Assembly (NCBI GenBank): GCA_030040395.1
Contig: JASHTU010000633.1
Coordinates: 1-14,392 of the forward strand
DNA length: 14,392 nucleotides
From: Acidobacteriaceae bacterium
Lineage (GTDB): Bacteria > Acidobacteriota > Terriglobia > Terriglobales > Acidobacteriaceae
Direction: 5' to 3'
Below, one piece after another: positions 7,530 through 9,801 of the stretch; the stretch's first letter is position 1, and the number at the start of each line of letters is the position of its first letter. Position numbers and translations under genes: made by a program. The notes under the pieces are model-generated. The model was not told the DNA's origin and made no database searches. It saw nothing but the letters and a program-made list of their open reading frames with translations.

Positions 7530-7800
7530 TTTTGGGCACAGCCATTCATGTGCGTCTCGCACCACTATGACGTCAACCTTTGGGAGCGGGCCTCTCCCAG
7601 CGCGTCTGCGCTATCCCAAAAGCGCCGGAGCCAGGATCTCAGTAACGGCCTGGAAAATCACCCCTGGGCTCCCGTATCTCAATTTCTTCGTGAATGCTGT
7701 TGTCGAAAGGAATGGGAAATCCGGCCTCGCCGGCTCTCGTCAACGCGAATTCTCCAGGTCTTTTCGCCTGTGCGAGGCGTGCGCGGTCCGGTTCTCCGGA

Positions 7801-7806
7801 AGGAGG
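7801..7806 (+). promoter_or_regulatory. Perfect Shine-Dalgarno that sets the peptide start
   Basis: AGGAGG lies six bases before GTG 7813. It also precedes an overlapping ATG at 7811, but that frame stops at once (ATGTGA). Only the GTG frame gives the helical leader and the aromatic core, so the precursor starts at GTG. It is among the strongest ribosome sites in the window, suggesting high expression of the peptide. Confidence 0.85.
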
Positions 7807-7812
7807 TTCAAT

Positions 7813-8229
7813 GTGAACAATGAAGCTGCGGTTGCAAAGTTGATGCAGGCTTGCGAGAAGGATGCGGAACTGTATTCCAAATTGCTGGCCAATCCGCAGG
7901 AAGTCGCCAATCAATACGGCGTGACGCTGGAGCCCGAGGAGATCGAGCAATTTAACAGGGTTCAGAAACTACAGAGCCTGGTGGCAGAGTTCAAGACGGG
8001 ACGGGGTGTCGTCGGTCCCATCCGGTACCCGATCGACGTGGCGTGGAAGGCAACGCTGGCCAACCACATCATTTACTACCGGCCGATTTTCTACCCCATT
8101 TTTTACGGGATCTTCTATCCGATCTTCTATCGGCCGACCGGCTATGTGGCTGGATATCCCGTGGAATCAGCTCAGGCCATTGGCCCGTTCACCGGTTTGC
8201 GACGGCTGGCTGCGAGGAAGCGGACCTGA
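7813..8229 (+). CDS. Candidate RiPP precursor with IFY-repeat core
   Basis: The 138-residue peptide has no signal sequence. Residues 1-62 form a charged helical leader (MNNEAAVAKLMQACEKDAEL, then LLANPQEVANQYGVTLEPEE). The 'L..NP...A..YG.TLE.EEI..F' pattern recalls Nif11-, NHLP- and LigA-like RiPP leaders. Residues 91-106 are four four-residue units, PIFY-PIFY-GIFY-PIFY, flanked by RP on both sides, followed by TGYVAGYP and a basic tail (LRRLAARKRT). The region between (66-90) holds RYPIDVAW and HIIYY. The start is GTG 7813, set by AGGAGG. The next gene, 252 bases on, is a radical SAM enzyme with an RRE-like domain, so modification of the Phe/Tyr array is the natural inference. The cleavage site and product are not predictable. 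A structural or adhesive repeat protein is the alternative. I recognise no named family. Confidence 0.75.
   Translation: MNNEAAVAKLMQACEKDAELYSKLLANPQEVANQYGVTLEPEEIEQFNRVQKLQSLVAEFKTGRGVVGPIRYPIDVAWKATLANHIIYYRPIFYPIFYGIFYPIFYRPTGYVAGYPVESAQAIGPFTGLRRLAARKRT
8083..8130 (+). repeat. Four in-frame 12-bp units encoding (P/G)IFY
   Basis: The units are CCGATTTTCTAC, CCCATTTTTTAC, GGGATCTTCTAT and CCGATCTTCTAT. They differ mostly at synonymous third positions (ATT/ATC, TTC/TTT, TAC/TAT), while the peptide IFY is kept in all four. Only the first residue changes, from Pro to Gly in unit three. This pattern suggests selection on the peptide rather than a fresh DNA slippage. Confidence 0.9.
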
Positions 8230-8481
8230 GTTTGCGGGAACTTCCGGGCGGTTTGTAGAAAGAGTCGACTTTTTCTGACTGGTTCGGGGAAGAAAGATTG
8301 CATTCTTTGCAAGCGATCCGCCTCGAACCGATTGCGAAAAAACGCATGATTGGAAGCGGCGCGGCGCCGGAAGAATCCGGAGGCTGCGCCCTTTCAAAGA
8401 CTGTCTTGGCTCGAAAACAAACAACCGGAGGGCCCGACCGTTCCGGCTGGCTCGGCGATTCCGTAAAGAAAGCGAGAAGAG
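8230..8481. other. Spacer between peptide and radical SAM genes
   Basis: These 252 bases hold no supported gene. AGAAAGAG-TCGA-CTTTTTCT (8257-8276) can form an 8-bp AT-rich hairpin with one G-U pair, 27 bases after the precursor stop. It could attenuate transcription so that peptide is made in excess over enzyme, as is common for RiPP precursors, but it is weak and lacks a separate U-run. An open frame from ATG 8298 runs into the enzyme gene out of frame and is not supported. Confidence 0.35.
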
Positions 8482-9801
8482 ATGGCCAACATACTCCTCA
8501 CCACCCGCTGCAATCTCAAGTGCCCGTACTGTTTTGCCCAGGAAAAACTGGGCTCCGGGCAAAAGCTCACCATGTCGATCAGCGATGTGGAGAAAGTGAT
8601 CGGTTTTTTGAAGCGATCGAACCACCCATACTTTCGGGCGATGGGCGGAGAACCGACGCTCCATCCGGAGTTTCCCCGCATTCTGGAGATGGCGCTGCAG
8701 AGCGGAATGCGCATGGATGTGCTGAGCAACGCGACCTGGCCCGAAAGTTATAACGACCTGTTCCGGCGCACCTCGCCCCGGCGAGTGATTTTCCTTTTGA
8801 ATATCGATCGCCCGGAGCGCTATGCGACCCATATCTGGGAGAGAATCGAGCGCAACCTGGCGGCCATTGCAGACCGGGGAACGATTACGTTGAGCTTTAA
8901 CGTCTTCGAAAAGCAGCCCAACTACGAATATGTCCTCGAACTTACCAGGAAATATGGCATCGACAAGATTCGGATGAGTTTTTCGCTCCCTGTGGTGGGT
9001 GCGAACAACGCCTTTCTCAAGCTGGAGGACTACAAAGAGATGGCGCCGTTCGTGGTGGAGTTTGTCCGCCGCGCGGAGGAAGGCGGCGTGCAGGTGAGAA
9101 TGGATAACGCGGTTCCGCTCTGCATGTTCAACAACGAACAGGCCGGAGAGTTGCTGCTGAAAGGCGTCGTCGATTTCCAGCGCAACATGCGCTGCGCTCC
9201 GGTGATCGATATCGGACCCGATCTGCGTGTGTGGTGTTGTTTCTGCCTTTCGAAGATGTGGAATCGCCATCTGGACGAGTTTCAAAACCTCGAGGAAATC
9301 CATAACTACTACCGCAAAGCCATGAGTCTTTATCAATCCCGGCTCTACCCGCTCGCGGAGTGCGATGATTGCCGCTACCGGGAGCTTTGGAACTGCCAGG
9401 GCGGCTGCCTGGCCTATACAGTGATGCGGTACGGAGAACTCTCGATCGAGGAGCGGCCCGAGCGGCCGTGCAGAGAGGGATGGAAGGAGGGGACGGTTCT
9501 CGCCTTCGCTCCCGATGTGCGGATTCGCCGCTATGACATGCCGGAGGAGTCATTCGCAATCTCTAGCAAGGCTTCCGGAATGGAGCTGGAAGTGGATGCA
9601 TCGTTTCAGCCGCTCTTGCAGTGCCTGAACGGCCAGCACTCGGCGCGGGAAGTGGTCGAGCGGTACGTTGGGAGCTCCGACCGGGGCTCCAACGGGCAAA
9701 ATGAACTGGAAGCGCTGACGCAAGGTGCTTTGAAGCAGGGAGCGAACGAGTTGCTCCGGGGCATGTTGCAAAAAGGGCTATTGGTTGAGCGCCAAGTCTG
9801 A
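8482..9801 (+). CDS. Radical SAM/SPASM-type peptide maturase with C-terminal PqqD/RRE-like domain
   Basis: The 439-residue enzyme opens directly with the radical SAM cluster motif C10-NLK-C14-PY-C17 and has GGEP (55-58), the SAM-binding element. A cysteine-rich C-terminal region (C238, C252, C253, C255, C294, C297, C305, C309, C330; AECDDCRYRELWNCQGGCLAY) fits a SPASM or twitch domain binding auxiliary Fe-S clusters. Residues about 342-439 (RIRRYDMPEESFAISSKASG, LLQCLNGQHSAREVVERY, GMLQKGLLVE) resemble PqqD-like RiPP recognition elements, which hold leader peptides. An in-frame TAA at 8464 makes ATG 8482 the first ATG start; the ribosome site (GAGAAG) is weak. With the repeat peptide just upstream, it probably performs radical chemistry on that peptide. 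Crosslinking, epimerisation and backbone excision are all possible. Confidence 0.88.
   Translation: MANILLTTRCNLKCPYCFAQEKLGSGQKLTMSISDVEKVIGFLKRSNHPYFRAMGGEPTLHPEFPRILEMALQSGMRMDVLSNATWPESYNDLFRRTSPRRVIFLLNIDRPERYATHIWERIERNLAAIADRGTITLSFNVFEKQPNYEYVLELTRKYGIDKIRMSFSLPVVGANNAFLKLEDYKEMAPFVVEFVRRAEEGGVQVRMDNAVPLCMFNNEQAGELLLKGVVDFQRNMRCAPVIDIGPDLRVWCCFCLSKMWNRHLDEFQNLEEIHNYYRKAMSLYQSRLYPLAECDDCRYRELWNCQGGCLAYTVMRYGELSIEERPERPCREGWKEGTVLAFAPDVRIRRYDMPEESFAISSKASGMELEVDASFQPLLQCLNGQHSAREVVERYVGSSDRGSNGQNELEALTQGALKQGANELLRGMLQKGLLVERQV

Follow-up and report, generated by a model that had tools for sequence, protein, structure and literature searches.

A candidate two-gene radical SAM RiPP system with a tyrosine-repeat peptide and a fused recognition domain in an Acidobacteriaceae contig

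We analysed a 14,392-base stretch of DNA from a soil bacterium of the Acidobacteriaceae (henceforth the window), in which an earlier note had proposed that a gene for a repeat peptide and the radical S-adenosylmethionine (SAM) enzyme gene behind it form a system for a ribosomally synthesised and post-translationally modified peptide (RiPP). As computed here, the two genes recur as a pair, the enzyme carries a fused C-terminal RiPP recognition element (RRE), and the peptide family shares a conserved tyrosine unit. We consider it probable that this is an uncharacterised, minimal two-gene radical SAM RiPP pair, in which the peptide's leader binds to the RRE of the enzyme, which then modifies one tyrosine after another. 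The features of the pair in the window are:

7800 to 7806, forward strand: Shine-Dalgarno sequence AAGGAGG, six bases ahead of the GTG (sequence reading)
7813 to 8229, forward strand: putative precursor peptide gene, 138 amino acids, GTG start (open reading frame; homologue searches)
7813 to 8004, forward strand: Os1348/NHLP-like leader, about residues 1-64, boundary estimated (NF038399 match)
8014 to 8037, forward strand: first core unit GPIRYPID, residues 68-75 (invariance of Y72 and P73 in the alignment)
8065 to 8082, forward strand: second core unit HIIYYR, residues 85-90 (sequence)
8086 to 8133, forward strand: IFYP-IFYG-IFYP-IFYR repeat, residues 92-107, with Tyr at each fourth residue (repeat count)
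8350 to 8397, forward strand: predicted hairpin between the peptide and enzyme genes (folding prediction)
8482 to 9801, forward strand: putative radical SAM maturase gene, 439 amino acids (PF04055 match; homologue search)
8509 to 8532, forward strand: CxxxCxxC, residues 10-17, ligands of the SAM-binding cluster by family role (invariant in 82 members)
9193 to 9408, forward strand: SPASM-like cysteines C238, C252/253/255 and C294-x2-C297-x7-C305-x3-C309 (alignment)
9490 to 9798, forward strand: C-terminal PqqD-like RRE, residues 337-439 (profile comparison, predicted fold)

Locus context was read for five distinct loci with a full-length enzyme out of 428 enzyme proteins (homologues at E<=1e-3, the window's own included): the window, L001 (the same as L010 and L013), L002 (L005, L014), L012 (L009; the one-contig genome G720) and L003 (Geobacter UBA698; L011). 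The peptide gene lies immediately upstream of the enzyme gene, on the same strand, in all five. Within the genus, enzyme and peptide also share an identical distribution, each with one match in the same 4 of 80 genomes. The earlier note had named an enzyme without its peptide, and a peptide found alone as an ordinary protein, as findings that would tell against it; none of the five readable loci had a full-length enzyme without the peptide, and no lone peptide was found in the 80 genus genomes. Among database peptides, 20 of 73 (i.e., 75 less the window's own and one that had no longest-contig size) shared an identical longest-contig size with one of the best 120 of the 428 enzymes, against 0-2 in twelve offset controls; on contigs of at least 3 kb, 18 of 34 peptides were size-matched to one of these 120. 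Leader and enzyme distances were correlated (r 0.78 over 24 pairs, i.e., the five loci and 19 of the 20 size pairs, the partial P0118 being excluded), a correlation that shared descent alone could produce. The proposal of a biosynthetic pair is thus borne out as far as adjacency and co-occurrence go, while the action of the enzyme on the peptide is something we infer.

In searches for further full-length enzymes, 60 relatives gave four matches, two full-length (the window's own genome and G020) and two lacking the RRE. Only the own genome was found among 396 genomes of the phylum, and the own genome and G720 among 399 of the class (at most four candidates scored per genome in both), while the 80 genus genomes held four. 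In 297 genomes of the Geobacter genome's phylum (at most five candidates scored per genome) one of 11 matches was full-length, namely that genome itself, which was also the only one among the 141 genomes of its order. A scan of genome contigs for further enzymes confirmed 3 of 64 stretches, and among the best 10 of 14 matching plasmid records the top two covered 84% and 82% of the enzyme at 27% and 26% identity. The closest named homologues are from Terracidiphilus and Acidobacteriaceae metagenome-assembled genomes.

The peptide gene has the length and strong ribosome site described in the earlier note, and its GTG start is found at the aligned place in three relatives (L001, L002 and L012). 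A single-sequence search (E<=1e-3) gave 28 proteins and a profile of their alignment gave 75, the window peptide being counted in both. Residues 17-58 match NF038399, the Os1348 family of the NHLP clan (E 3.8e-5, 23.7 bits), as do 48 of the 50 aligned peptide members at E<=0.1 (best 2.7e-7). By sequence, the leader belongs to the Os1348/NHLP type, related to the curated family yet outside it. Past the leader, the window core reads IRYP, IYYR and then IFY four times in succession, with P, G, P and R after the respective units. The IFY array reported by the earlier note stands, but across the 75 members the repeat is better written as [I/V/L]-x-Y-[P/R]: we counted 309 such units against a shuffle mean of 25.5 (standard deviation 4.9, maximum 44; 1000 shuffles), although these are not independent observations, since the peptides are related, and residue 62 is only an approximate cut, since some peptides are N-terminally truncated. 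When the residues past position 62 of the window peptide were shuffled 100,000 times, 3 shuffles reached its five units. The codons of the four IFY units differ (ATT TTC TAC, ATT TTT TAC, ATC TTC TAT and ATC TTC TAT), meaning that the repeat is not simply one fresh DNA duplication.

Across the 75 natural variants the units number from 1 to 7 per peptide and are differently arranged (PIFYP strings, VISYRG tails, GPIFYPA blocks or PIRFYPIRYYP strings), with Y-[P/R] recurrent throughout. Around the 576 tyrosines past residue 62, position -3 is Pro in 48%, position -2 is Ile in 52% and Val in 9%, and position +1 is Pro in 53% and Arg in 19%. P28, Y72 and P73 are invariant in the 50 aligned members, Asp stands three residues after the Tyr of the first Y[PR] unit in 60 of 75 peptides, and a basic tail closes the window peptide. 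Comparison of the window with L001 points to purifying selection on the leader (dN 0.17, dS 1.5), the core (0.21, 1.0) and the enzyme (0.16, 1.8), with dS near saturation.

The enzyme matches PF04055 (E 1.6e-14) and has both motifs named in the earlier note, C10-x3-C14-x2-C17 and GGEP (residues 55-58). Cysteines 10, 14, 17, 214, 253, 255, 294, 297, 305 and 309 are invariant in 82 aligned members, and Cys 238 is present in 81 of them; the seven invariant cysteines beyond the first motif, together with this eighth, would presumably bind auxiliary clusters. The predicted fold aligns over residues 1-322 with SuiB, anSME and CteB, and C-x2-C-x7-C-x3-C is present. All 22 NCBIfam matches of the window enzyme at E<=1e-5 were far under their cut-offs; none was titled cyclophane-forming, and TIGR04517 (proteusin epimerase PoyD; cut-off 325 bits) was not among them.

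The last ~100 residues of the enzyme matched the PqqD set by profile comparison at 94.8%, against a maximum of 16.8% in 200 shuffles. When this domain was modelled alone, its pLDDT was 89.4 and its top six matches in the PDB were all RREs, with TigE as match 5. Pfam PqqD was matched at E<=1 by only 4 of the 82 members, the window enzyme not among them, and both profile comparison and fold were needed because Pfam alone misses the RRE. The PqqD-like C-terminus suspected earlier is therefore present, and the absence of an RRE fold, which the earlier note had listed as a reason to reject its proposal, is not what we find. On profile and model evidence the enzyme carries a fused C-terminal PqqD-like RRE, predicted to bind the leader.

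One explanation of these data involves no RiPP at all: the peptide would be an ordinary membrane or surface protein with aromatic repeats, and the enzyme would act on something else. The basic tail at the peptide's end and the lack of a visible protease or exporter nearby would fit this, but co-occurrence and adjacency of the two genes, the NHLP-like leader and the fused RRE argue against it, and of all the explanations weighed here we hold it the least probable. In the RiPP reading, the peptide would be the precursor and substrate of the enzyme, with an Os1348/NHLP-like leader, a core of [I/V/L]-x-Y-[P/R] units and a basic tail. The leader would dock on the RRE at the enzyme's C-terminus, and the radical SAM/SPASM-like part would move along the core iteratively, modifying one Tyr unit after another; we place the leader on the RRE and the core in the radical SAM site because this is what one would infer from knowledge of RiPPs. 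Leader removal and export would then fall to shared host machinery, or the product would stay inside the cell.

Several observations weigh against this reading. The window leader scores below the curated NF038399 cut-off (23.7 vs 40 bits). On contigs of at least 3 kb, 16 of 34 peptides had no size match among the 120 listed of 428 enzymes. As the earlier note had remarked for the window, the open reading frame lists inspected (window, L001, L003 and L012) show neither a protease nor an exporter next to the pair. The SPASM-like cysteines it had described are indeed conserved in the 82 aligned enzymes, but the assignment to SPASM is incomplete: no cysteine is conserved past Cys 309 in these members (C330 is not kept), so that what we take to be the usual last SPASM cysteine appears to be missing, and Pfam SPASM is absent from the window enzyme's three Pfam matches at E<=1. 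As for the chemistry, the residue two after Tyr is variable (I, P, A, V or G). Glycine is unable to take a C-beta crosslink, and its presence at +2 in some units speaks against a uniform crosslink to that position.

Our first guess for the modification, to which we give somewhat less than an even chance, is that the Tyr ring is joined through a C-C bond to one of the neighbouring residues, the chemistry of cyclophane RiPPs; epimerisation, tyramine excision and cyclopropanation follow in that order, with the remainder left to other chemistries. In triceptides (XncB, OscB and YxdB), the cited passages describe SPASM radical SAM enzymes that join aromatic residues, including Tyr, to a neighbour, with Tyr C3 bonded to the C-beta of Asp or Arg (PMC11002830), and an Arg-Tyr bond in RRR and a Glu-Tyr bond in PQQ are likewise described in part of another report (PMC8326336). 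The window system, where such a bond is a guess, differs from triceptides in having no cyclophane-titled NCBIfam match at E<=1e-5, Gly or Pro possible at +2 in its family, and a C-terminal RRE.

The comparison with proteusins bears on an alternative in which the enzyme is an epimerase that inverts alpha-carbons (e.g., of the Ile/Val two before Tyr) to give a D/L-patterned peptide. Proteusins of the NHLP (Os1348) type share the long NHLP-resembling leader with the window peptide, and a radical SAM enzyme that carries its RRE at the C-terminus is likewise known from this group with its PoyD-type epimerases (PMC8326336, PMC7470986). By contrast, the window peptide has a core of Tyr units and a leader under the cut-off, and the enzyme has extra conserved cysteines: proteusin epimerases have the radical SAM cluster only, according to the relevant part of the cited review, whereas here seven more cysteines are invariant and one further is found in 81 of the 82 members. 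Also, Y-[P/R] is more constant than Ile/Val, and in the Tyr/Trp repeats that adjoin RRE-less relatives of the enzyme (see below) I/V are mostly missing. We regard epimerisation as unlikely.

A third possibility is that the enzyme, in the manner of a splicease, excises tyramine at X-Y-Z sites, so that the core is left with alpha-keto-beta-amino acids. The splicease PlpX is, in the passage cited, also a SPASM-containing radical SAM enzyme acting on Tyr (PMC11002830), and splicease tags such as GGPIRPGYGLPI and similar ones, as given in part of the source, resemble the window's GPIRYPI (PMC10533398), with a similar GPIR..PI context. However, the site of PlpX is X-Tyr-Gly, whereas Pro or Arg follow 72% of the 576 tyrosines here, Gly is outside the six commonest residues at +1 and the window core has a single IFYG; PlpX moreover uses a separate partner, PlpY, whereas the window RRE is fused. 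Excision seems to us quite unlikely. Very improbable, in our view, is cyclopropane formation on Ile/Val, modelled on TvgB and its TVGG repeats. TvgB works many times on a repeat peptide, according to the passage cited (PMC9062424), and TigE is among the fold matches not only of the RRE but also of the whole enzyme model (match 12). Yet I or V occupies -2 of only 61% of tyrosines, while the first unit keeps its Y-P in all 50 aligned members. These systems differ from the window's in that the RRE of TigE is N-terminal (chain residues 4-85) and the target of TvgB is Val, not Tyr.

Relatives of the enzyme that lack the RRE (~320-370 amino acids, the match ending near residue 320) occur in genomes and in contigs of viral collections. 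Among the best 80 of 261 relatives in the viral collection, no match extended beyond query residue 323 and no peptide of the window family was found; named phage records gave no match for the enzyme of locus L057. One locus from the window's class (L007, the same as L148) has a separate open reading frame directly upstream of the RRE-less relative that scores 93.9% against the PqqD set, and a 408-residue relative on a Thiodictyon plasmid is directly preceded by a gene annotated as a PqqD family chaperone. Since PqqD-like genes adjoin relatives at these places, two genes that are neighbours elsewhere may have fused to give the window enzyme. A close kinship between the L007 reading frame and the window RRE was also considered and is unsupported (2.9% by profile comparison; no Pfam match for that frame). 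The Thiodictyon plasmid (L152:2573-8650) has the PqqD-family chaperone, the 408-residue radical SAM relative, an amidohydrolase, YcaO and TfuA in a row. Another order, radical SAM gene, small reading frame, shorter radical SAM relative and WD40 protein, is common to L148:7323-11342 and a Chlorohelix plasmid (L151:2339-6197); the small frame is PqqD-like in L148, whose WD40 protein has a C-terminal tail rich in Cys.

In the enzyme tree, 20 RRE-less rows fall in one group (98/100), the outgroup and several rows being long branches. For the 20 RRE-less loci examined for aromatic neighbours, L149, L058, L066 and L068 had been excluded, as a filter found no radical SAM reading frame in them, as had L060 and L064, which were regarded as duplicates of L059 and L063. 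A reading frame in which Tyr and Trp make up at least 35% of a 40-residue stretch lay directly upstream on the same strand in 7 of the 20 (L141, L142, L143, L145, L146, L057 and L062), against 0 of 30 PqqD loci and 1 of 66 other viral radical SAM loci (L071, whose frame is identical to that of L062), the threshold having been chosen after the data were seen and the PqqD loci being shorter (90 kb in total vs 256 kb). Periodic aromatic repeats were seen by eye in three more loci (L056, with Trp, L061 and L063), and the repeat periods are three (L145, where N or D stands at +2 of the aromatic residue in 23 of 26) or four (L056 and L063). This adjacency to Tyr-rich repeat proteins supports, at the level of sequence, aromatic residues as targets across the clade, but even by eye 10 of 20 loci lacked an aromatic repeat. 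At the strict threshold 13 of 20 had no such frame, including the same-genus L147 and L139, the best RRE-less match in the Geobacter genome's phylum, which weighs against our main reading. At a 25% threshold, 13 of 20 RRE-less loci but also 22 of 66 viral controls (and 0 of 30 PqqD loci) had one, and this threshold was abandoned because it does not discriminate in viral contigs.

We also considered a broader picture, with the window enzyme as a member of a wide unnamed radical SAM clade, spread over bacteria and viral-collection contigs, that acts on periodic aromatic peptides (Tyr/Trp every 3-4 residues), crosslinking unit after unit and so stiffening or zipping whole tracts into an 'aromatic ladder' polymer, not a small natural product, with the RRE fused in the window branch. 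We think this unlikely.

Of the repeat proteins themselves, five from the Geobacter genome's phylum, directly upstream of an RRE-less relative, are 16-34% Tyr (L141:7351-7833, L142:7584-7997, L143:1817-2161, L145:7544-8020 and L146:8976-10001, minus strand) and begin with a signal-like RR..KR..K N-terminus, which may be of the twin-arginine type. Those in viral-collection contigs near RRE-less relatives are Tyr- or Trp-repeat proteins at L057:4847-5527, L062:4652-5962, L061:3003-4355, L056:7276-7977 and L063:8056-8334.

No paper on this system was found, judging by title or abstract beginning among the matches listed, with most subscription papers outside coverage; in these partial sources, C-terminal RRE fusions and NHLP-type leaders are already known, while the Tyr-unit core and the enzyme subfamily were not found named. 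The window pair offers a compact, testable two-gene system whose repeated site and fused docking domain suit the question of how a single radical enzyme might act repeatedly along a peptide; the 75 natural variants add a range of unit numbers to it. If Tyr/Trp-repeat partners do go with the RRE-less relatives, a larger enzyme clade with predictable substrates, partly on viral-collection contigs, would come into reach.

The window is an entire contig, from an assembly of 4.1 Mb with a completeness of 77%, and the pair is flanked there by a TPR gene and a GH3 gene; no flanking gene is common to the window, L001, L003 and L012, as judged by eye from their reading frame lists. The gap between the two genes is 252 nt in the window (8230-8481), against 96-118 nt in four relatives (L001 118, L002 116, L012 117 and L003 96). 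A GC-rich stem was predicted in all five intergenic gaps folded, with whole-region z-scores of only -0.3 to -2.8; because these are weak, we note the hairpin without claiming it as a conserved regulatory element. It may perhaps set the ratio of precursor to enzyme.
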